64,000 nucleotides of DNA from Hexactinellida sp. DTS-2022. Taxonomy: Eukaryota; Porifera; Hexactinellida. The stretch is taken from contig JAPNXP010000001.1 in assembly GCA_028753945.1 (NCBI GenBank), positions 4,764,501-4,828,500 on the forward strand, in the 5' to 3' direction. Position 1 is the first letter of the stretch, and the number at the start of each line of letters is the position of its first letter. The notes below the pieces were generated by a model. It had not been told where the DNA came from. It did no database searches and was given only the letters and a program-made list of their open reading frames with translations. Below, one piece after another: positions 18,370 to 45,948 of the stretch. The translations under genes and the position numbers were made by a program.

Positions 18370-21228
18370 TCAAATGCTTTTAAACTTCTTCAATTTACGT
18401 GTATTCTCAACCTCGAGTCTATGCTGAGCATTCAAGTTCTTCACTTTGTTGGAGAGAAAACAGTTGGCGCCAGTAGTGATTAGCGTGTTTAATATATCCC
18501 AACCAATTGTATGACAATTCGGGCACTTATTCCTCCAGTATTCACTTTCTTCATCTTCCAGTACTCTTAATGTTAGGTTAACGAGAATTCGTCTAGATGG
18601 TCCTTCAATAAGCTCTTGGAAAAGTTTAGGCTGTTGTTCGATTGAGGTGAAAATTTTCCACAAGCAAACTAGAACGTGAATTACTATACCAGATGGCCAT
18701 TTTAGTGCACCGCGATCCATTACTTGTAACAGCTTGTAGATTGATTCTGGTGATGCATCTATTTCCATTGCTTTATCTTCTGTAAGGAAAGATAAGCAAC
18801 TGTGACACCGGGCTGAGTTTTTGAAGTAACTATAAACTGTATATCCAGCAATAAACACAAGTACCTGTAGAGTTGGAGTGGGAACTCTAATTACCGAGTA
18901 TTCTTGTATAGATGATAAAAAATGTTCCGTTGGAAGAGTACTAGCTGGTTCTGTTGAAGTTGAAAATGAATCAATAAATTCTTTAAGAGATAAATCATTC
19001 ACTGTACCTTGACTTGAAAAATATTTTAAAATACTAGATAATTTTAAGCGCCGCTCGCTTTCAAGGATCTGACAGACGCTAATATGATATTGAGCACCAG
19101 CCATCATTCTGTAAATACCAAAATGATGCTCAAGGGGGTCATTTTGCAAGAAAGAAGTGAGTAGATATGAAAAGTTACAGTTCTGTGTAAGATGGTTTAC
19201 AATTGAAGTTAAAGCCAGACAAGAGTGGCGAAAGCTTTTGAAAGTCTGAGTAGTAAGTTTCCCAGTCTTGCCAGGTAATTCTTGCCATTTTTCAAGCCAA
19301 TCAGTAACTCTTGATAAATAACTGAATCTGGAATCGTTTTCGACAAATGGGCGACATAATTCATCATTTAATCGAATTGCTTTGGTTGGAGTATTAACAT
19401 TAAACATCTTCCAAATTTCACAAATTATACGAATGAATTCAGCTGTGTGATGATAAGGATAGTGGCTAGGAAATCTAAGAAATTGAACCTTGAGTGCAGA
19501 ATGTGTAGAATCATCAAACACTCTCAAAGCTAAATTTACATTTTGACGTTCCAAATTGGAAGGCCAGCATGCTTTGGCTGTTAACCGAGGAGCCAATTTA
19601 GCTACAGAGTGTTGATCAGCTTTATATAAAGATCGGATAACTTCGAATGAAGCACTATAGATGGTGGAAAAATCCTCAAAGTTAGGGTAACTAAAGCTTC
19701 TTCTGTAATCTTTTTGGTTCACCCAGTTATTACGTATAGTTTTAAGAATATGTACAAAATCGAATATCAAGAATAAAGGTCGATCAGCATCTATAATATG
19801 TGGAACAACATGATCTAAGGTGTTAGTTGGTGAGAACAATTTGAAGATACTCACATTCATTGGGTAGTTATCTGAACACAATACTTGAACATATAAACCA
19901 CAACGTTCAATATCCTCGATAACCATTTTTATAATGGGGAACAACTCTGCGGCTGAGGAGTTGGAACAAGGTAACAGACGAACAATTGTGGACCACTTCT
20001 TAGATAGACTGGAAACCATGAAAGCAAAGATGGTTTTGGCAGGTTCATTAGTATTTGAAGATGAGCCCAACACTCTTCCTCCTTTATAGGTTAATTCTGA
20101 TTTAACATGAATTTCGTCCATTTGGACTATTACATGTCTTTCCCTTTGGATAAATTGGGATGTAGCACTTTCCAAAAACGAACTAAATTCACTGTCCAAG
20201 CCAAACTTTGAATATAAACGCTTGAGTGTTGAATGATGAGGGAGGAAGAGAGAGTCGAGTGATTGTAGGTATTGATAACATGCTGGGGAAATAAGTTGAC
20301 ACTTCAGTGCTACTATGATAGTTCCAATATTGTAGCTACGATGGTGTTTAGAACATAGGAGGTTTTCTAATTGACAAATTATAAATTGTATGGCAGATAA
20401 CTTGTTATCTTCCTTACAAACATCGTCCTCTGATTTTGAGATATCATCAACTGCTAAACGCAACAACTTGGTGGCATCATTTATATGGTGTTTATAAGTA
20501 TGGTTTGAATTTTCTGTATTATGATTATTGATACTTAGATAAGACAGCTCTTTCAATAAGTTTTCAATATCCCTAAGATCTTGAATCTTCATTATCGAAA
20601 CGGGAACCTGATTGCTATTTAAGAAACCCTTAGTACATAAAGATTTGTCGATTGTTAACGAACACTCAATAACAAGAGCTCCATTCATATTCGAAATAGA
20701 TGGCTTGATAAAATTCAGTTGGTTCATTCCAAGAGACCATGGTAGCCATTCCACTGGAAGGGTTAAATTATTCACTTTTGAATTTAACTCACAGAGTGTA
20801 GATACTTTGAACCTCTCTTCATCTTTTTGTTGTTGTTTCAAGCTTAGTGTTATCCCAACATCCAACTGATCTCGTTCTTTAGTACTAAGATCCAAACGAG
20901 TTTGTGTCTTAGTTAAAACAGAGAGATAATTAGGACAACCAGGTAGGAGCTTTGGAACAGCATCTCGGTGAAGTCTAGGCATGCTACGTTTGACTTCTAA
21001 CTTAGTTCCATCAGGTTGAGGAATTAAAAAGTGTGTTTCCACATCTTCATCATGGAAGTGTTTCAGACACACATGTACGTTTTTAATATCTTCAACATTT
21101 TCTCTATGAAGAAATGATTTCCATTGAATAACAAGTTGAGGTGGTCCATTTGGCATCTTGAATACAGGTGTAGGTGTCTCGCCAGAGTAATTACTCCTGC
21201 AGCCAGGTGCTGAACATCTATTTGGCAT
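18370..21228 (-). CDS. THAP-domain P-element-type transposase, intact, 952 aa
   Basis: A DNA transposase of the P/THAP9 superfamily, expected to bind its own ends and carry out cut-and-paste transposition in the nucleus. The N-terminus is a THAP zinc finger: Cys5 and Cys10 (CSAPGC), Trp36, then C54-x2-H57 (CLKHF) and AVPKL at 90-94. The catalytic RNase H-like core shows D371 (QMDEIHVK), D453 (CSDNYP), D490 (IFDFVHILKTIRNNW, the region of the GTP-binding insert) and E700 (NDPLEHHFG). All are expected positions of the family, so no key residue is visibly missing. Single exon, no stop or frameshift. The start is the Met directly before the THAP Cys pair; a later Met would remove the finger. It lies antisense to the host gene whose intron holds it. 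It could be a domesticated gene, but the perfect terminal repeats argue for a live or recently live transposon. Confidence 0.9.
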   Translation of the reverse strand: MPNRCSAPGCRSNYSGETPTPVFKMPNGPPQLVIQWKSFLHRENVEDIKNVHVCLKHFHDEDVETHFLIPQPDGTKLEVKRSMPRLHRDAVPKLLPGCPNYLSVLTKTQTRLDLSTKERDQLDVGITLSLKQQQKDEERFKVSTLCELNSKVNNLTLPVEWLPWSLGMNQLNFIKPSISNMNGALVIECSLTIDKSLCTKGFLNSNQVPVSIMKIQDLRDIENLLKELSYLSINNHNTENSNHTYKHHINDATKLLRLAVDDISKSEDDVCKEDNKLSAIQFIICQLENLLCSKHHRSYNIGTIIVALKCQLISPACYQYLQSLDSLFLPHHSTLKRLYSKFGLDSEFSSFLESATSQFIQRERHVIVQMDEIHVKSELTYKGGRVLGSSSNTNEPAKTIFAFMVSSLSKKWSTIVRLLPCSNSSAAELFPIIKMVIEDIERCGLYVQVLCSDNYPMNVSIFKLFSPTNTLDHVVPHIIDADRPLFLIFDFVHILKTIRNNWVNQKDYRRSFSYPNFEDFSTIYSASFEVIRSLYKADQHSVAKLAPRLTAKACWPSNLERQNVNLALRVFDDSTHSALKVQFLRFPSHYPYHHTAEFIRIICEIWKMFNVNTPTKAIRLNDELCRPFVENDSRFSYLSRVTDWLEKWQELPGKTGKLTTQTFKSFRHSCLALTSIVNHLTQNCNFSYLLTSFLQNDPLEHHFGIYRMMAGAQYHISVCQILESERRLKLSSILKYFSSQGTVNDLSLKEFIDSFSTSTEPASTLPTEHFLSSIQEYSVIRVPTPTLQVLVFIAGYTVYSYFKNSARCHSCLSFLTEDKAMEIDASPESIYKLLQVMDRGALKWPSGIVIHVLVCLWKIFTSIEQQPKLFQELIEGPSRRILVNLTLRVLEDEESEYWRNKCPNCHTIGWDILNTLITTGANCFLSNKVKNLNAQHRLEVENTRKLKKFKSI

Positions 21229-21679
21229 TATTCTAGTAGGAGATAGAATTCCAATTATTATCTAATTAAACAGGTATGAAATCAACATATAATAGAGGTA
21301 GGAATTGGGATAGTATATAAATACTAGAAGAATGTTTGAGATGATGTAAATGTATCGTGAGAGTTAATTGCAAATATAAAATATAACCCGAATGTCATAT
21401 AAAAATTATCCCTAAATATTATGGTTATCCATAGCCTACTCTATATATGGCCTAACAGTAACCTAGAAAATGTGGACCAAGGATGAAGGAGAAGATGGTA
21501 ATATTTATCCAACCACAATATTTAATTTCAAAAATAATAATCATAATCAACCACATTAATTAGAAATATTCTTGAAATATATACAATTATTGATCAGATT
21601 TTATTCCAAACACTTCTATTGACGTAAAATCTCATCCTTTTAATTTCGCTCTGGTATTTATTCATATTAGCTTCTATTC

Positions 21680-22123
21680 ATGCCTAACTCGTGTTCTGTC
21701 CCCGGATGCAAGAGCAACTACAACCCAGATGACCATGTTCCTGTGTTCAAGATGCCTCAAAATCCACCAACCCTGAATCATGCCTGGACATACTCTCTTC
21801 GTCGCGAGGATATCGGTGACCTGAAGATGGTCTATGTATGTATCAACCATTTTCAGAAAGAAGACATAGACTACACTTTCCAAGTCCCAAGAGGAGATAG
21901 TACTTTTACTGAAGTACCGCGGGCGAAGCCAAAGCTGAAGGAAGCCGCTGTACCAAGTTTACTAACTCGCTGCCCAGCGTATTATTCATCCAAACCTAAC
22001 AAACAGAATCGCTTCTCATACGATGCAAAAGAGGAAGAATTGATGAACCAAACACTACAACTCAGCTTGAGATCCGAGAGTCAAGAGAAAGAGAAGTTTG
22101 TGGTAACTCTCCACAGGACTTGA
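21680..22123 (+). CDS. THAP-only open frame of the nested P-like element, 147 aa
   Basis: The frame reads a complete THAP finger (CSVPGC, Trp36, CINHF, then AVPSL at about 90-94) plus a linker, ending at a TGA after KFVVTLHRT. It is about half identical to the N-terminus of the intact transposase. A copy with the same stop is at 37030-37473. In Drosophila, truncated P products that keep only the DNA-binding part act as repressors (established for KP-type proteins); a similar role here is inference. The 16 or so amino-acid differences between the two copies versus about six silent ones look neutral, which argues against strong selection. Confidence 0.6.
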   Translation: MPNSCSVPGCKSNYNPDDHVPVFKMPQNPPTLNHAWTYSLRREDIGDLKMVYVCINHFQKEDIDYTFQVPRGDSTFTEVPRAKPKLKEAAVPSLLTRCPAYYSSKPNKQNRFSYDAKEEELMNQTLQLSLRSESQEKEKFVVTLHRT

Positions 22124-22139
22124 AAGATAAGTTAAAACC

Positions 22140-23660
22140 TTGATTTCTTTATCTAATAGTTGGTTGGTGTGGTTCCGTAATGAAAGCAACATAACGTTTG
22201 TTCTCGCTAAAATGGTTGAAAAAAATATCTCAGTAGATTTGTACCTTGAAATCAATGCTTATTTATCCACCTCAGCCTATTTTAATAGACAGAGTATATC
22301 CGTTTCCATTGCTGCAATTAGTGACATTCGAGAAATTGAATCTGTTTTGCAGAAACCTGCTTTAAAATACAACTCTAGTTCTTATTGTGATTATCCCCTT
22401 AAGTTCGGTTGTGCATCATTTGAAGATGTATGTTAATTATATAATTCAGAAAGAACAAGTTATCCAAGTTAGCTCCTCATTTGACTATGGTGTCATGTTT
22501 TCCGTCGCATAGAGCTTCAAAATGTAAAACTGGTTTTGAAAGTCGTTAACGAATTAACAATATCTGCGCTAACTATCCAGAATATAGAAATAATACTCCG
22601 GAGTTTGTTGATACCCTTCTTACTGTTTGGAAATTATTCAACGTTAACACACCATTTAAAGGAATACTTTTGAACGATAATTTCTCTAGACCTTTGACTT
22701 TTAATTGACGAGCGATTTCTATTTTTGACTCATGTAGTTTTGGTTAGATGCTTGGCAAACTTTACCAGAAAAAATTGGCAAACTGAGTAAACAAACATAC
22801 ACCAGTTTTAGACATGCTTGTATTACCTTACCACAAATTACCAATCATTTGACTCAATATTGTGGCTTTACATATGTGTTGTCCTCCTTTCTACAGACGG
22901 ATCCCTTGGAACACCATTTCGGTCTATACCCTATGATGTCGGGTTCTAATTATCACATCTCCTATCTTCAAATCCTTGAACCGAGCGTCGACTTAAACTT
23001 TCTAGCATAATCAAACATATTTACTGACCAACAAGACACTTCCTTTCAATCTATTCAGTCATTTGTTAAGTCATTTTCTTCTCCGTATAGTGTATTCCAC
23101 TACTGATGGTGAGTTCAATTTGGAGCCATTTCTTGATGCGATTAATAATTTATCAACAATTGATTGTGGTTCACAGTTGAAACAATCATTAGCCTTTATT
23201 GCATGCTATACTGTCCATCAGTACCTGAAACAAACAAAACCGTGTCATGTCTGTCTCATATGCTAACAGTTGATAAAGAATTTCTCCTTGATTTAAACTT
23301 GGACTCTCAGTATAAACTTCTGCAGCTAACGGACCGTGGCGGACTTAAATATCCATCTGAGCCAGTTTTAAAATCCATATTTGTTATATGGAAGACCTTT
23401 AGTGCCATCGAAAACAATAAAGAGCTGATGGCGAAGCTTGTAAGTGGACCTTCTAGAAAAATACTAGTTGACTCACGTTGGTGTATTTGGAAGTTAGCGA
23501 TAATCGTCATCCAAGTATTTGGAAGTCTACTTGTATTAGCTGTGGTGTGTTTAGTTGGAACATCTTATCGAAGCTCGTCTTTACCGCAGCGAATTGCTTT
23601 CTTGCAAACAAAGTTAAGAATTATAACTCGCTGGTTCTTTCAAAAAGTATAGAAAGCGTA
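22140..23660 (+). pseudogene. Remains of the P-like transposase core
   Basis: Downstream of the THAP frame the same strand shows homologous pieces in shifting frames: a stretch ending ISDIREIESVLQKP (about 22330), TVWKLFNVNTPFKGI (about 22630), PLEHHFG-like text (about 22910) and the C-terminal part with QYKLLQLTDRGGLKYPS (about 23320) and SGPSRKILV (about 23455). Relative to the intact protein the segment with the first catalytic aspartates is deleted near 22440-22590, and several stops are present. It cannot encode an active enzyme. Confidence 0.75.
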
Positions 23661-24666
23661 AATTTAAGAAATTCTCTTAATTATGTGTTTACTTATTTGT
23701 ATTTACCATTATTTGTATTACTCTGTTATTCTTATTTCTATTATGTAGTTAAGTGTGTCGTGTGTCACTGCTAGAGCCAGAGAGAGAAAGAGGAGAGAGG
23801 AAAGAAAGCAAATAATTGTGCAGTATTTACTGTATATTACTATTAGAAATTGTACTGTTTGTGTTTATTATTACTATTAAATTATGAAAATCCAATCACC
23901 CTTCTCATTACAGCAAATATTAATTACGGGCTAGCACGGCTGAGTTATGTTTACGACCTAGAGACCCATAAAGAACTAAGTATTCAATATAGAAAACATT
24001 AAAAAATTAAAATTTCCCATCTTCTTGTGCATCCTTGGTATATCTACTGTCAGGCCATATATAGAGTAGGCTATGGGTTATCTAATAAAATGGACTTCCT
24101 TTTATCCATGGTGCAGGAAAATTATTTTGGTGAACAGGCCTTATATAACGTAGGTCACGGATGAACTTAGAGACTAACTTCCAAATGTTAGATAAAGAAA
24201 AGAAGTATGCTGATTACGAATTAAAATTTAAAAATTTTATGTGAATATTTGTTGTCTATTGAAAAAAGCGATACCGCGTAGTGGTTGAGTTATTCGTCGC
24301 GTAGCGACCGAGACCGAAGAGATCGTACTATCTAAAAATCATTTACCATATGAGCAGTTTTTTTAAAGTAAATTTATACTGCGATTACACTTTAAGGTAG
24401 AAAATTATCAACTTGTTGCTGCACTCACACACTAATTTACACTCTAATTTCTAAGATTACACATTAATCAAATCCTTAAAAAAATTGCATCCAAAATTAC
24501 GTATACAGAATATATTTTGTCAATCCCAAAGTATTCTTATGTAATGCCTTTAATTACCCCCATGACCAACCAGGTATGTATTAATATCAAACAGAGATAA
24601 TTATTTGAGCTAATCCTGAAGGAATCATCTTTGGAAAAATTTTAAACAACAACATATCTCCTCTAG

Positions 24667-25290: not shown

Positions 25291-25311
25291 TAATAACAAG
25301 TTAGTTAATTT

Positions 25312-28044
25312 ATGGCAGCCCCACTTAACATATCAATCCCACCGCTGAAAGAAGACCAGCGAATTGAGGAGTGGCAACCGCTATTTATCGCAGCCACAAG
25401 CGCACTTGTAGTGACCTCTACGGAGAAGGCAGCAATTCAAATCCTACCGTCCTTCATATGCCGTAATGGTTACGAACAATCGACTGTCTTGGAAGCAATT
25501 AAAGAAGAAACGCTGGAAGCCGCGTTTGCATTGCTGTGTACCAGCCTTGACCCCCCTATCGATCAGTTCGAAGCGATGTTGAGCTTTCGCAGAATGCAGT
25601 GGGCGCGAGGCGCGAGAATAGAAGTGTTCTTCGATCAGCTCAGGAGGCAAGCAAAACGAGCAGGACAGTCAAACTTAGCGGCCTGTACAGCTCTAGTGGG
25701 AGAATTACCCGAGCAGGTCCAACCGGCAACCAAGACATGGGTGAAAGGGAAAGAACAATGCACCGAAAAGGAAGCAAGGGAGTTTGTCATGCTGGTTCAG
25801 GCGACTCTACGGCAAAGAGGATTCTCGTTAGACCACGGAGCCCGTCCGGTACTCAGCGGGGAAACTATTAGAAAAACCGAGGAGACGACAAGTAAAACTA
25901 TGGATTCGGAACCGGAGGAAGGCGACACAACAAACCAAACAGAGGTATGCAAAGTCTGGTCTTCACAGAGAACCGAGAGAGAGAGAGAGAACTACCGTAA
26001 AGAGGGGAGAACGAGATTCAAATGCTTCACCTGCGGGAAGTTAGGTCATGGGTGGAGATTGTGCCCAGATTGGAATAGGGAGTTCGTTGTAGAATCTGAC
26101 GCCAGCTCGGCGGCAGTTGCTGCAGTATTATCCCAGCGTGAAACCGATACCGGACGACTCTGCCCTATTGACTACTTCTCGTCCTCCCTAAGCCAGTCAC
26201 AGAAAAATTACTCAGCGGGACAGTTGGAGGCCTGGGGACTAGTGGCAGCATGCAGGAAGTGGCGGACCTACCTGAGAGGGGCAGATAAGGTACTGCTGAT
26301 TACCGATCACAACCCATTACGATGGATGCGTGCTCAAAAAGATCCCAGACACACATTTGCCCGTTGGATTATGGAACTGGAAGAGTATAAGTACGAGATA
26401 GTATACCGACCCGGCAAAGAAAATGTACTGCCCGATTATTTGAGCAGGATTCCTGAGCAAAACATGGATATGGACATTCAGGACGAAGGTATATTTGAAG
26501 ACAAAATATTTATGGCCTTACAGGACGACCTAAGGGCACGCGTTCTCCAAGAACAGGGTCGGGATCCAGTAACTCGCGCTGCAATTGAGCAGATGAGGTG
26601 TGGGGGAGAGATTGCCTCGGGGCAATTGAGAAGGAGCGCCTCTCACCTTAACCTACATGAAGGGGTGCTATGCTTCGACAAGCGACTAGTAATCCCAAGG
26701 GCGATGCAGATGGAGATATTAAATCAGGTACACGCAGCTGGACACTTTGGTCAAGCGAGGACCTTACAAGTTCTTAGAAGGGACTGCTTCTGGGTAAAGA
26801 TGGCCCGTGATACAAAGAATCATTGTAGATCGTGCATTACGTGCCAGCTTGCAAAGCCCTCCAATGCAGCGAAACAACCTTTGGGTACATTCGATACGGA
26901 CGGAATCGGACCAGGAGACCTCGTCGCTATGGACGTGGCTACTCTCCCGTGGTCGGATAATACATACAGGTACTTCCTATGTATGGTGGATGTTTTCACG
27001 CGATACATCGAAGCCGTACCATTGAAAGATCAGAAGGCACAATCGTTGATAAAGGCATTCGAAGACGGTTGGATATACCGAGGCCATGGCGTACCAAGAG
27101 CGCTGCTTACAGATCAGGCGCATAATGTAGATGGTTCTGAAGTGAGGACGTTATGTGATAAACTCGGGATCAAAAAGCGACACACCTCACCGTATCACCC
27201 ACAAGCTGATGGACTAGCTGAAAGAAGTATAGGCCTCGTGAAGCAGGTGGCCAGGTGTCTAACACTTGATAGGAAACTAAGTAAAGAGTCATGGCCAGGT
27301 TTGCTGCCGGAAGTCACCTTCTATTGCAATAACTCCGAAAACTCCTCCACTAAATTCTCGGCTCAACTCTTGATGACTGGTAGACAGCCATTGTCCCCAA
27401 TAGATGCACAGCTAGGAACGCGAGGAGGTTCGGGTGCGGAGTCCTATGAGCGCCACTTGGACAGACTGGTGGAGCTAAAGAACGAAATTAGCAAAATTGC
27501 TAGGGAGAATGACGGGATAAGCAAAGTAAAGAGGCAGGAACGCTACGACAAGGGTACTAAGGGAACGGTGATAGAGCCCGGGGACTACGTGATGGAGCGG
27601 AACGAAACGAGGACAGATTCGCTCGACGTGAGATATAAGGGACCATTTCGAGTGGTGGCGCGTAGGGGCACCAACTTTAAGATCAAGCGGAGGAGAGGTA
27701 CGAAATGGGTTCATGCCAACAGGTGCAAGTACTATAGCGGGAGTGGAAATGGCGAGACCATATCCGACCAGACACCGATATACGGCGATAACAGGGAACA
27801 TGCGCCCTGTTACGATTATGGAACGTCCGAGATGGAGAACAATCACGAATCCGAGATAATTGAGACTTCCAGTACTGCACTAGGAGCGTCAGCCCTAGGC
27901 GAAGGAACTACAGAAATACAAACCGATCCAGGAGCAACTCCTGAATGTAGTGATGAAACGGGGATGAACAATACCCCAGCCCGTCAACGTAGATATCCTC
28001 TGAGAATCAGGAAACCAAAAGATTATCAGGATTATATGACTTAG
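25312..28044 (+). CDS. Fused Gag / RNase H / integrase polyprotein, 910 aa
   Basis: A retrotransposon polyprotein with an internal in-frame loss. Residues 1-235 are Gag-like. The zinc knuckle CFTCGKLGHGWRLC (C-x2-C-x4-H-x4-C) is at 238-251. It then runs straight into the RNase H domain (FVVESDASSA, QLEAWG and LITDHNPLRW carry the expected acidic residues, about 258-345). The integrase follows, with the H2C2 finger (HAAGH ... CRSCITC, about 473-505), the DDE core (AMDVA; LLTDQAH; PQADGLAERS) and a GPF module (RYKGPFRVV). Protease and reverse transcriptase are absent with no stop or frameshift at the junction (about nt 26065). Such a copy would need RT from a relative. The start is the first Met after the LTR. 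Confidence 0.9.
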   Translation: MAAPLNISIPPLKEDQRIEEWQPLFIAATSALVVTSTEKAAIQILPSFICRNGYEQSTVLEAIKEETLEAAFALLCTSLDPPIDQFEAMLSFRRMQWARGARIEVFFDQLRRQAKRAGQSNLAACTALVGELPEQVQPATKTWVKGKEQCTEKEAREFVMLVQATLRQRGFSLDHGARPVLSGETIRKTEETTSKTMDSEPEEGDTTNQTEVCKVWSSQRTERERENYRKEGRTRFKCFTCGKLGHGWRLCPDWNREFVVESDASSAAVAAVLSQRETDTGRLCPIDYFSSSLSQSQKNYSAGQLEAWGLVAACRKWRTYLRGADKVLLITDHNPLRWMRAQKDPRHTFARWIMELEEYKYEIVYRPGKENVLPDYLSRIPEQNMDMDIQDEGIFEDKIFMALQDDLRARVLQEQGRDPVTRAAIEQMRCGGEIASGQLRRSASHLNLHEGVLCFDKRLVIPRAMQMEILNQVHAAGHFGQARTLQVLRRDCFWVKMARDTKNHCRSCITCQLAKPSNAAKQPLGTFDTDGIGPGDLVAMDVATLPWSDNTYRYFLCMVDVFTRYIEAVPLKDQKAQSLIKAFEDGWIYRGHGVPRALLTDQAHNVDGSEVRTLCDKLGIKKRHTSPYHPQADGLAERSIGLVKQVARCLTLDRKLSKESWPGLLPEVTFYCNNSENSSTKFSAQLLMTGRQPLSPIDAQLGTRGGSGAESYERHLDRLVELKNEISKIARENDGISKVKRQERYDKGTKGTVIEPGDYVMERNETRTDSLDVRYKGPFRVVARRGTNFKIKRRRGTKWVHANRCKYYSGSGNGETISDQTPIYGDNREHAPCYDYGTSEMENNHESEIIETSSTALGASALGEGTTEIQTDPGATPECSDETGMNNTPARQRRYPLRIRKPKDYQDYMT

Positions 28045-36984: not shown

Positions 36985-37551
36985 TTAATTAATTTCGCTT
37001 TGGTATTTTATTCATATTAGCTTCTATTCATGCCTAACTTATGTTCTGTCCCCGGTTGCAAGAGCAACTACAATCCAGATGACCATGTTCCTGTGTTCAA
37101 GATGCCTCAAAATCCACCAACTCTGAATCATGCCTGGATATGCGCTCTTTGTCGCGAGGATATCGGTGACCTGAAGGTGGTCTATGTATGTATCGACCAT
37201 TTTCAGAAAAAAGACATAGACTACACTTTCCAAGTCCCAAAAGGAGATGGTACTTTTACTGAAGTACCGCGGGAAAATCCAAAGCTGAAGGAAGGCGCTG
37301 TACCAAGTTTACTAACTCGCTGCCCAGCATATTACTCATCCAAAACTAACAAACGGAATCGCTTCTCATACGATGCTAAAGAGGAAGAATTGATGAACCA
37401 AACACTACAACTCAGCTTGAGATCCGAGAGTCAAGAGAAAGAGAAGTTTGTGGTAACTCTCTACAGGACTTGAAAGATAAGTTACTCTTGATTTATTTAC
37501 CTTATAGTTGGTTGGTGTGGTTCCGTAATGAAAGCAACATAACGTTAGTTC
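36985..37551 (+). pseudogene. Detached copy of the THAP-only frame
   Basis: The stretch from TTCGCTTTGGTATTTTATTC to ACATAACGTTAGTTCTC is about 95% identical by eye to 21646-22205. It contains the full 147-codon THAP frame (37030-37473), CSVPGC and CIDHF intact, ending at the same TGA. The homology stops at 37551, where a family R hairpin fragment (37553-37582) is joined. No inverted ends remain, so it can no longer move alone. The frame is open but may simply be young. Confidence 0.7.
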
Positions 37552-41264: not shown

Positions 41265-44200
41265 CTACGTGATCACGTGTCCCTGCTTCCCAGTGGCTCT
41301 CCCACGCGTGTGACTAAAGTTACTACAGAACGAGCATCTGAGGGGAGCCCCAGCCTCAGTGCTGTTCCTCAAACAGGTCTCATGAAACACGTGACTGCAG
41401 TTAAACACTACCAGGTCGCGCCATAGCCCGCTAGCCACCATTGCCCCGTGGCCTATAACGGAGCCGTTACACAGCGCACAGGACCGCGAGTCCCTAACGA
41501 GCATGCCGCGACGCATTAACCGAGATAGGCGGTCTAGCAGCGCGTTAGAATCCTTGGTAAGAACGTCTCTACAGCCCCGGTTCAATGCTATCTGTAGCTG
41601 GAAGTCCTGTAGTATCTTAACCAGTGCGTCCCTTAGTCCCGGGATTGTGGTGCCGGCCGGAATCCGTTTTATAAGCGCAACTCTATCCACCTGATGATCC
41701 ACTATATTCTCACACAGCACCCGTATGAACTCTGGTTTCTTCATAGAGTACTCAATAAGGTCTTCCCATAAATCCTGATCATCCGTCTCTTTACAGAACT
41801 CTATTGCTTTATGTATGTTCTCCAGCTTATTGGTTATCAGGTGCAGGGCCTCTCTATTGTTCCCCATACGACCGTGTAGGTACACCTGTTCCTCTATAAG
41901 GCCCTTGCTCTTACAGAGCTCTAGCGCCTTTGGGAGCGGGATGTTATGCGTTGTGCGGCGTAAAAAGTTAAGCAGCTTGCTGCGGTCAAATTCAGCGTAG
42001 AGGTATACCTGTTTCTCGTGGAACTTCGTGTTCCTCTGAGGATTCTTCTCGAAGAGAGCGTCTAGATACAGGTTTAGGAGGTCTGGCCTGTGGTCCCCCT
42101 CTAGCTGCGACACGACCGAATCAGGAGGTATCCTCTCTTCCTGCTCTACGAGCATATTAACACCCCTATCCCTATCCAGCTCCAGGAGAGTCGATATCTT
42201 ATCTTGTACAGAATGATACAGACTGTATCTGTGTATTAGCTCGAACACATCTGGGTTCCTAAGCTCGAGGTATATAGCCAGTGCCTTATCGAACTGTTCC
42301 TGACCGGAATAAAGTAGGGCTAGACATGATAGCAACACGCCTCTGGCCTGTGGAAGCCTAGGGTACCTGTCTAGCTGCTCTAAAACAGCCGATATTATAT
42401 TGTCCGACTTGTATAGGTCGGATGGCCATTGCTTTAACATACGATGGAAGGTGTCGCAGTCCATCTTAAGGAACTCATTAAGCACCAGTTCGTATATGGT
42501 TGGGGACAGCTTAGGAGTATTAACGGGGATGAAAGGTGCCATTATGCGTAGCTGTCCTATCTCTATGAAGTGGTACACTTGCTCCTCCCATAATCCCTGG
42601 TCCTCTCTGTAGAGCTCCGGACAGAGCTCTGCCGCCTCTCGAAAGCGACGCTCCTCTATTAGGTGTCTGATGCAGTGCTGTCCTACCTTAAGGAGTAGTA
42701 ATATGATATGTATTGAATTGGGTTTATGTATTGTCTGGGTTTATGTATGTATTGTAATGGGTTTATGTATTGTATTTGGTATATGTACAGTAACAGACAC
42801 CCTCGCTAGTCCGAATAGGAGATTCCAAAATATTTTTCGTATAAAAGTGGGAAAAAATCGTTAATACGTATTTGTGTATACATTGGAATTATACAAAAAT
42901 AAGACTGACAGGTGTTTTGTTAGTATACCATGTGTTTTTTTAGATTAAAATGTTTGGACAAGTTTGGTTCGGTTAACGCAGTAGTTTTCAACTTTTTTTG
43001 TACTACGGAACCCCTAAATTGTTTGTGGCAGCACGCGGAACCCTACACTTCTAATTCCAATACGAATATATTTATAACAAATTTAGTTACATTTATTTAT
43101 TAACTAGTATCGTCAAATACAGTTTCAATGTGAGATCTGTGATTGTTTACTTTTGCATATTTGTTTTATTCGTGGTCTGATAGTCAATAAGCTGCTAAAG
43201 ATTGTATTTCCGATTGACTATTATGAATCTCTGATCTATTTACATCGATTTGCCAATAATCCCGCGGAACCCTTGAGGTTTAGTCGCGGAACCCCGGTTG
43301 AAAACCACTGGGTTAACGGGTCTCAGTCATAATGGTCAATATAAAATGTATTACTTCACTAATCCGAACTAATTCACAATTCGGAACAAAAATCTTGTGA
43401 ACGGAATCGGATTCGGATTATCGAGGGTGTACTGTATTGGGTTTATGTATGTATTGGGAAAATAATAGAATAGGAAGCAGTTTGTCAAAGGAAGGGTATA
43501 CCCTCCTGGTCAGTAAATAGACAACTTTCATTTTGTATTGTTGGACCATGTATTCAAGCCGGATTTTTCTAATATCCATGGTCTAGCAACACTGAAAATT
43601 CGAACTACAGTCACTCTGCTTAATAGAGTCATCTCGGGACCAGGTTGCTTTGACCCGATTAAGCGGAGAAATCTATTAAACGAAATTTTTTTAAGCAAAA
43701 ATGTCATTCCGTCCATTAAATCCGGTGAAATTTTGACCCGATTAAGCGGAGAAATCTATTAACCAACATAACTGCTGTCCTACCTTCAATAGTCTCAGTC
43801 TCTTAAGGAACCTGCTCTCCCTCCTGGCCACCTCAAGAGCTCGTCTATACTCCTTTCTCTCCAGCAGCCACTCTACGTGATCATCCACATCTCTCTTCTT
43901 CCCGAGGATAATATCGTGTGGACACACTATGTAGAACCTGTCCTCCCCAGGGACCCGCTCCAGCCTATAGTCGTTACAGCGCAGCACCTGGGTATGGGGA
44001 AATATTAGGAAACCAACTAGGAAACTGTTGGAAAAACCAAAATAGGAAACTGTTGGAAAAACCAAAATAGGAAATTGTTCGGAAACCAAAATAGGAAATT
44101 GTTCGGAAACCAAAATAGGAAATTGTTCGAAAAACCGGGTTAAATTCATCCGAACATAATCCTTAGTATAGTCAGGTTTCAGTGCAAAATCTCGCTTGGG

Positions 44201-45948
44201 AACAAATAAGTTGCTAATAGAGCAATTCCACTGTATTTCCTATTTGGTTCGAACTATTTCCTATTTGCTTACCTGGTGTCTGCGAACCTTTATGACGTCG
44301 ACAGACAGCTCGTCGGCCGCCTCGTACCCATTGAGTCTCAGCACGGATAGGTGCGGGGGGTGAGCCGGGTGGGAGGGGCTCAGGGGGGCTCCCTCTATCT
44401 GGCTAGCGGCCGAGGTCGTGTATAGCAGCACCACGATCTGGTCAGGCTCCTATAGGGGATACATAGGCAGATTAAACAGACGAATAAGCCTAAATAGTCA
44501 AATAAATAGTCAAATTCAACCTATAAAATAGTCAAAAATGGTGAAATTTAGTGAATACCTGAGGGTAATATTACTGCGTATAATACGTAATACGCTATCC
44601 ACCAGTAACATAGCAAGCGAAGCGCGCTAGTAACGATTAAAACGAAAGTTGTTCAAAGCAAATTCCATGAGCGCGATATTATAAGTATGGTATACGTATA
44701 ATACGTATTATATGTACAGTTGAACCTCGTAATACGAAACAGAAACGGACGGTAAAAATTTGTTCGCTTTATCCGGAGTTCGTATTAACCGGAGTAATTC
44801 CCATTAATGGCCATTGTAGGGACCTGATTGTGTGGAACTGTTTATTCATCTACCCGGAAATCCGTATTAACTGTGTTCGTACTAACGAGGTTCTACTGTA
44901 ATACGTATCTAATAAAAGACGTATTAAACAACTAAGAATTTAACTTTGTGAAATTCTAGTGATGTCCTGTGGGTACGAAAAATGTCAATAAAAATAAAAA
45001 ATGTCAGAAAAAACAAGAAAAAAAAATTCTAAATATTCTACTGATTACCTGTGGATAAGGAGCTAGACCTGCCACTAGATCCTCTAACTCCACAACGCTT
45101 ATTATCTCCACGAACTTATTCGGCATGTCCTTAGCATTAGGCTTATCCCTGACAACGCTTATCTTTACGGAATGTGCCCACCCCACTAAGAACTGCATAG
45201 GGCCCTGCCACACTATCTTACAAGGCGCCAATTGGGGCCTGGGTCCTCTTTTGTCACGAGTAATGCGAGATATTCTCAACTTAGATTGTGAGTCGAACAC
45301 GATAACTGCAGCTTCATTTGCCCAGGATATAAACTGGTTATGCCAACGTATTATGTTAATGGTACCCTCCCCTTCGTGTAACACCTGTATACTCTTTCTT
45401 ACCCAACCCTTTTCAACCATCATTAGCTTCTCATTACCCGTCACGAAGCCCCGATTAGCAGCCTTAGTATAGTCGGGTTTCAGTGCAACAGATTTCACAG
45501 GTCTCTCTATGTCGACCACCTGATTATGTTCGGAGGAATATAACCCGTTTATAACTACCTTTCCGTCATCCGAACAACTAGCTATATACTCCCCAGCTAG
45601 ATCTATGCTAATGTCATTAACGGTACACGAGTGCACTGGGAATTCCTTGCTAACTATGAGGTGCCCCTCGTGATCCGCTATAAGCACCTGACCATCATGA
45701 GTGCCCACTGCTAGGAACTTGGAGTGCACGGCCATACAGCTGACTAGATCATCTCCGATTCGTTCTAGAATGTTCTCTCCTATTCTGTCGTACTTCAGCT
45801 TGGGCTCCTCCTCCTCCTCGCTGTCGCTGTCGGACCCGCTGCTGCCCTCGCTCCCGCTGTCGCGTCGGTACTCCCCTGGGGTCCGGTCCTCGCTTCCGGA
45901 CCCAGAGGAGTACCCGCCCCCCCGCTCCATTAGCTGCTCAGAAGCCAT
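41265..45948 (-). CDS. VPS41: VPS41, HOPS-complex subunit, four exons
   Basis: Vacuolar/lysosomal tethering protein of the HOPS complex, also needed for regulated secretion. Exons (- strand): 45948-45049, 44449-44273, 43987-43784, 42686-41265; 300+59+68+473 codons, close to the roughly 850-residue animal proteins. All introns are phase 0 with GT-AG ends. The N-terminus is a Ser/Glu-rich leader (GSDSDSEEEEEPKLKYDR), followed by the WD40-type region (CMAVHSKFLAVGTHDGQV, ISIDLAGEYIASCSDDGKV). Middle: FYIVCPHDIILGKKRDVDDH and WLLERKEYRRALE. The clathrin heavy-chain-like repeat follows (LWEEQVYHFIEIGQL, HEKQVYLYAEFDRSKLLNFL, DLWEDLIEYSM, LRDALVKILQDFQLQIAL). The C-terminal RING-H2 has CALC, CSHVFHETC and CSFC. 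No break in any exon. The start is the first Met; a CT-rich segment lies upstream. Expected to be a housekeeping gene. Confidence 0.93.
42794..43434. mobile_element. pogo-like MITE in VPS41 intron 3
   Basis: Left end ACACCCTCGCTAGTCCGAAT and right end TTATCGAGGGTGTACTG followed by TA match 29239-29569. It is interrupted by the hAT-type element at 42979-43310. The exact left base is uncertain because two CAG triplets (42788 and 42794) are possible. Confidence 0.7.
42979..43310. mobile_element. hAT-type MITE nested in the intronic pogo-like MITE
   Basis: Starts CAGTAGTTTTCAACTTTTT and ends GGTTGAAAACCACTG, between perfect duplications GGTTAACG (42971-42978, 43311-43318). The subterminal CGGAACCC motif is repeated at both ends. 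The GGTTGAAAACCACTG end is common in animal hAT MITEs. Confidence 0.9.
43608..43763. mobile_element. pogo-like MITE remnant in VPS41 intron 3
   Basis: CAGTCACTCTGCTTAATAG, GGACCAGGTTGCTTTGACCC, then two copies of GACCCGATTAAGCGGAGAAA. Same family as 5331-5515 but rearranged at the right end, which runs up to the direct repeat at 43773. Confidence 0.55.
44003..44190 (-). repeat. VPS41 intron 2: 25-bp tandem repeat and an exon-derived fragment
   Basis: Five units of about 25 bp (AATAGGAAATTGTTCGGAAA or AATAGGAAACTGTTGGAAAA) are followed at 44161-44187 by 27 bases that match VPS41 exon 1 (45462-45488) with one mismatch. The fragment corresponds to the codons for LKPDYTK of the WD40 region. Confidence 0.65.
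44480..44630 (+). mobile_element. Helitron 3' fragment in VPS41 intron 1
   Basis: CAAAAATGGTGAAATTTAGTG and the terminal TAGCAAGCGAAGCGCGCTAG next to T match the 3' part of 36290-36682. The 5' end is missing. Confidence 0.7.
44717..44898. mobile_element. pogo-like MITE in VPS41 intron 1
   Basis: Starts CAGTTGAACCTCGTAATACG and ends ACTAACGAGGTTCTACTG, between TA duplications. Sister of 33946-34135. Confidence 0.85.

Follow-up and report, generated by a model that had tools for sequence, protein, structure and literature searches.

The origin of new spliceosomal introns is debated, and clear footprints of an intron birth are rare. In Daphnia pulex, new introns are found at repaired double-strand breaks, with junction repeats of 4-12 bp (available part of PMC4202315). 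Introns may also arise when an exon segment that contains AGGT is duplicated in tandem, as reviewed in PMC3443670, the accessible text of which further reports that, in Drosophila, repeats of at least 5 bp are as frequent beside old introns (26%) as beside new ones (25%). Introners, as described in the portion of PMC9860276 at hand, combine transposon sequence within the intron with a repeated target at its ends; in some earlier Introner families the repeats are of 3-9 bp.

Intron 3 of the VPS41 gene described here shares features with each of these systems without coinciding with any of them. Like the break-repair introns of D. pulex, as far as the available text characterizes them, it has a junction repeat with filler between the two copies, but the repeat is of 14 bp rather than 4-12 bp, the intron is filled with transposons and its gain is inferred from one genome. 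As in the tandem-AGGT introns of the reviewed excerpt, the AGGT of both copies provides donor and acceptor and the coding sequence is retained, whereas here the interior holds no exon copy and only a stretch of 14-21 bp is duplicated. The resemblance to Introners, within the same portion of the source, lies in the transposon sequence and in the repeated ends, but no family of similar introns was found here. The caution that follows from the accessible Drosophila figures would stand for intron 3, though its repeat far exceeds 5 bp. Overall, the junction repeat of intron 3 is real and unusual, and makes the intron a good candidate for birth by break repair.

The VPS41 gene lies on the reverse strand of the window (i.e. 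the whole 64-kb stretch of DNA that was analysed) at 41265-45948, and consists of four exons (45948-45049, 44449-44273, 43987-43784 and 42686-41265) which, separated by three phase-0 introns, join into a frame of 900 aa without internal stop. Exon 4 matches the Pfam TPR_Vps41 family in a profile search (E=3e-112), and the window protein matches yeast Vps41 (E=2e-29). On the same strand, intron 2 (43988-44272) is of 285 nt and intron 3 (42687-43783) of 1097 nt, the latter reading GTAGGACA...TCCTTAAG and being placed by its GT...AG ends and by the frame. Intron 3 falls between the K and V codons of LLK|VGQHC, and a further candidate acceptor, also in frame, lies 9 nt downstream. When intron 3 is retained, the exon 3 frame reads into a stop after a few codons (ORF end 43742), so that removal of the intron is obligatory. 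Other open frames of the window include one of 963 aa at 18370-21261 on the reverse strand, by eye a THAP-domain/P-element-type transposase, with apparent broken relatives at 21671-23774 and 37021-37473 on the forward strand, and one of 911 aa at 25309-28044, also on the forward strand, which is RNase H- and integrase-like and, by eye, a piece of a Ty3/gypsy-type retroelement.

An earlier note on this DNA had claimed that intron 3 is flanked by a 14-bp direct repeat holding both splice sites, and that splicing restores a single copy in the mRNA. Both claims are borne out by the sequence, apart from a start at 42677 that is 1 bp off (the actual one being 42676). The repeat, AAGGTAGGACAGCA, is present on the reverse strand as two exact copies, one at each junction: copy 1 (43773-43786) spans the end of exon 3 and the donor site, and copy 2 (42676-42689) spans the acceptor site and the start of exon 4. 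The first bases of intron 3 are the GT of copy 1 and its last bases the AAG of copy 2, and splicing as AAG|GT...AAG|GT leaves one AAGGTAGGACAGCA with the 900-aa frame kept. Thus, the junctions carry the exact repeat in splice register, here of 14 bp, that is looked for in a break-repair neo-intron. With up to 2 mismatches allowed, these are the only two matches to AAGGTAGGACAGCA in the 64-kb window; shuffled windows (n=100) gave a mean of 0.27 matches, and two or more in 2/100. In the 112-Mb genome AAGGTAGGACAGCA occurs at eight sites, namely the two intron 3 junctions, one site in a partial VPS41 copy (see below) and five others. Four of these five lie in one common, unrelated repeated context, and the remaining one is single, which led to rejection of AAGGTAGGACAGCA as a piece of a dispersed repeat.

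How exceptional such a repeat is was estimated in two ways. A simple model that assumes the base composition and the splice frequencies puts the chance of an in-register run of at least 14 at 2.4e-6 per intron, i.e. 0.12 such runs are expected among 50,000 introns, the intron number being also assumed. As an empirical control, intron gaps in the kinesin and chaperonin genes of the same genome were examined, and for each gap the longest in-register run was scored over all GT/GC-AG pairs lying no more than 110 bp away; the two families were picked for length and number and are, therefore, a non-random sample. There were 33 kinesin and 19 chaperonin gaps; removal of four kinesin overlaps (L075, L076), which are not introns, left 48, comprising every non-overlapping gap, model-less ones included. 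The runs were of 4 (n=11), 5 (n=20), 6 (n=9), 7 (n=7) and 8 (n=1). Identical scoring of VPS41 gave 6 for each of introns 1 and 2, and 14 for intron 3, which therefore rises above the intron background of its own genome (14 versus a maximum of 8), as a break-repair neo-intron should. Spliced alignment yielded candidates for 24/33 kinesin and 18/19 chaperonin gaps, and its top models (n=38 after dropping overlaps, several of them uncertain) had runs of 0 to 5. AG|GT is common at both junctions of the best-scoring control introns. The kinesin genes are themselves of mixed intron density, seven motor domains each being encoded without interruption and others being divided into several pieces. In one kinesin intron (L067, G000:C11:13432050-13434450) the intron's own intron/exon junction is copied in inverted orientation, within long inverted repeats (~605-749 and ~1311-1432).

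The interior of intron 3 is indeed mostly transposon sequence, as had been claimed (900/1097 nt by annotation, in which the element at 42788-43434 rests on its inverted ends). All of the elements lie on the reverse strand. A pogo/Tigger-like MITE fragment (43608-43764) has copies, besides those in the gene and in the partial copy, that are 90-93% alike (40 scored of 1922 candidates), several of the aligned ones terminating in TA-CAGT...ACTG-TA. It is followed by a member of a second short repeat family (43512-43607; copies ~85-93% alike, 40 scored of 140 candidates) and by a TIR-ended, pogo-like element with inverted ends (42788-43434), most of which is found in the partial copy too and which is split by a hAT-like MITE of 332 bp (42979-43310). 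The latter, which differs by 3.3% from the majority sequence of 18 copies and is missing in the partial copy, has an 8-bp target duplication of its own, GGTTAACG, at 42971-42978 and 43311-43318. The labels pogo/Tigger-like, pogo-like and hAT-like are those which we take the end sequences to indicate.

None of these elements reaches the arms of the junction repeat. Between the 5' arm and the nearest recognised element there are at least 8 bp in the window and 23 bp in the partial copy, and on the 3' side the distance is ~98 bp, so that, among recognised elements, no ends abut a duplicated target in the way that a transposon insertion would leave them. Because they never abut the arms, they are read as insertions into a pre-existing intron; as makers of the repeat they were rejected, the hAT-like MITE having, moreover, its own duplication. 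Of the proposal that the locus bears the footprint of an intron birth, one part stands, in that the repeat is real, is far above the 48 other gaps and fits a duplicated target, while the attribution to recognised transposons is unsupported. The 101 bp adjoining the 3' arm (42690-42790) are matched nowhere else in the genome at the search sensitivity used, and an interior stretch (43428-43511) has no genome relatives except the partial copy, so that no Introner-like family shows: the many similar introns with common ends that define Introners did not appear in searches with these two stretches, the 5' end outside the MITE being too short for such a search. Besides the 14-mer, no repeats between the exons and intron 3 were listed (seed 11, score 14). 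Nor is the intron body a duplicate of the adjacent exon, as tandem AGGT duplication would make it, although a very short duplication subsequently pried apart would escape such a comparison; an origin from a long, tandemly duplicated exon segment was rejected, the interior being without exon-like sequence.

The age of the intron can be judged from a broken partial duplicate of VPS41, located 8 Mb from the gene (G000:C1 ~12.872-12.873 Mb; L021) and carrying exon 3 and intron 3 together with portions of intron 2 and exon 4; its exon 4 has a 33-bp deletion and a premature stop, the frame being broken behind EGQGL. Since the partial copy contains intron 3, intron 3 is older than that duplication. 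The gene and the partial copy differ at 10/207 positions in exon 3 (4.8%) and, over the 5' portion of intron 3, at 20/294 (6.8%); farther along, the differences are 16/110 and 44/168, with 125/721 over the whole intron and 26/344 in exon 4, counts that include poorly or wrongly aligned stretches. Judging from this divergence, intron 3 is not very young, as it predates a duplication which is 4.8% diverged in exon 3. In the partial copy the donor-side arm of the repeat is identical, and the acceptor-side arm has 2 differences, with a 6-bp insertion nearby.

The partial copy also hints at a formerly longer junction repeat. The end of its exon 3, GACTCCTAAAGGTAGGACAGCA, matches the end of intron 3 of the window, TACTCCTTAAGGTAGGACAGCA, at 20/21 bases from ACTCCT on, whereas the window's own exon 3 (ACTATTG) matches more poorly and without the 21-bp extension. 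The three nearby exon differences of the partial copy fall at the three mismatch positions of the window exon, and two of them turn into matches. Either the original repeat may have been of ~21 bp, or sequence may have been exchanged between the two junctions. In the region of the partial copy (G000:C1:12870001-12879999), the intron 2 minisatellite beside exon 3 has expanded to ~1 kb and is open in several frames.

A second peculiarity of the gene is found in the neighbouring intron 2, where a truncated MITE fragment (44186-44238, reverse strand) adjoins two patches derived from exon 1. The genome copies of the MITE stop matching at 44186 (query position 90), where the exon-1 patch starts; 3/4 of the aligned MITE copies continue beyond this point, the fourth being unaligned in that orientation. 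The first patch is a direct copy of 27 bp (44161-44187, reverse strand; source 45488-45462, 1 mismatch), and the second an inverted copy of 26 bp (44136-44161, forward strand; source 45547-45522, 2 mismatches). With up to 3 mismatches, the exon and intron 2 are the sole sites of each exon-1 piece in the 112-Mb genome. The arrangement looks like the scar of a break, perhaps at the transposon, that would have been filled by template-switching synthesis from nearby DNA. POLQ is the enzyme known for template-switch repair patches, and a POLQ-type gene is present in this genome, its single frame of 1803 aa combining helicase, POLQ helical and polymerase A domains.

The explanation to which we incline, with confidence falling a little short of even, is that break repair duplicated an AAGGT-containing stretch of 14-21 bp and thereby created intron 3, which transposons subsequently enlarged. 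The position would then have been intronless beforehand. The starting point would have been an uninterrupted exon, in which a break occurred at an AAGGT-containing stretch of 14 bp, perhaps originally of 21 bp (ACTCCT[A/T]AAGGTAGGACAGCA). After the repair, two copies of this stretch would have flanked some other DNA. This outcome could have been reached in two ways: a staggered break was filled in and filler was captured in the process, or a short tandem duplication was later pried apart. As the stretch holds AAG|GT, copy 1 would have supplied the donor and copy 2 the acceptor, and splicing would have recovered the original frame exactly; with donor and acceptor arriving together in the two copies, the protein sequence would have been preserved. 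Later insertions of transposons into the interior would have brought the intron to its 1097 nt. In favour of such a birth we count the repeat in splice register, its low probability in the simple model, the control maximum of 8, the 20/21 extension, the absence of an Introner-like family among the relatives of the two stretches searched, the filler repair in intron 2, the POLQ-type gene and the junction repeats of new introns in Daphnia; against it, we count the length of the repeat, 14-21 bp exceeding the 4-12 bp of Daphnia, the 2 differences in the 3' arm of the partial copy, the lack of the 21-bp extension in the window's own exon 3, the Drosophila figures and the fact that the intron is not very young.

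The same scar in intron 2 lends credibility to an alternative, in which intron 3 is old and a later break close to its donor was patched with a short piece copied from where the acceptor meets exon 4, or vice versa, with the help of the AAGGT that the splice consensus gives to both junctions. The joining of exon-1 pieces to a truncated transposon amounts to templated patching at this very locus, and a conversion tract might account for the three exon-3 differences between gene and partial copy that lie no more than 6 bp from the junction; the frequency of AG|GT at both junctions of the best-scoring control introns points in the same direction. Such a patch would have to fall in exact splice register on both sides, and runs at the 48 control gaps never exceed 8; we regard this alternative as unlikely, albeit one to be taken seriously. 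A chance match between the start of the intron and the start of exon 4, aided by the AG|GT consensus, appears improbable. In its favour, ~0.1 such match is expected per 50,000 introns on the assumed figures, and the windows scanned before this one was chosen are uncounted and perhaps many; against it, the run of 14 lies outside the distribution of the 48 gaps, and the partial copy extends the match to 20/21, the placement of its three exon differences at the mismatches of the window exon, with two turning into matches, having a chance of ~1 in 80 by a post hoc hand estimate. Least probable of all is the target-site duplication of an unrecognised transposon that itself became the intron (e.g. 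a retroelement with a variable duplication of 7-20 bp), since, even if a length of 14-21 bp is in the range of non-LTR retroelement target duplications, a short-period repeat near the 3' arm, AATACATAAACCC, might be an element tail, and the 5' search covered the MITE only, with an arm-to-MITE gap of ~8 bp in the window, the 101 bp beside the 3' arm are without genomic match at the sensitivity of the search, terminal repeats beside the arms were not seen by eye, and the recognised elements keep the distances from both arms given above.

Genome contigs were scanned with the exon 4 protein and with a two-sequence alignment of the window protein and yeast Vps41, the latter being also used for one scan of viral contigs; patterns matched, but tblastn confirmed no orthologous VPS41 in these three scans, so that intron 3 is a candidate gain. 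In human VPS41, intron 17 is placed before c.1423, according to the available part of PMC8103106. The literature consulted on human VPS41 exon boundaries does not state the one that would correspond to intron 3. The human c.1423 site presumably falls within what is here the uninterrupted exon 4, if the human numbering is as we assume.

A broader reading is that introns 2 and 3 of VPS41 form a cluster produced by template-switching break repair using the gene's own exons, in one case as exon-1 patches and in the other as the self-copied AAGGT stretch of 14-21 bp. We consider it rather doubtful; if true, it would mean that these introns were born and remodelled by self-templated, POLQ-like repair and not as mobile introns. 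Should the position prove intronless in relatives, birth of intron 3 by break repair would be an example that can be dated, in a conserved gene, with a long duplication at its junctions and a self-templated repair scar beside it, and would tie the origin of an intron to end-joining repair.
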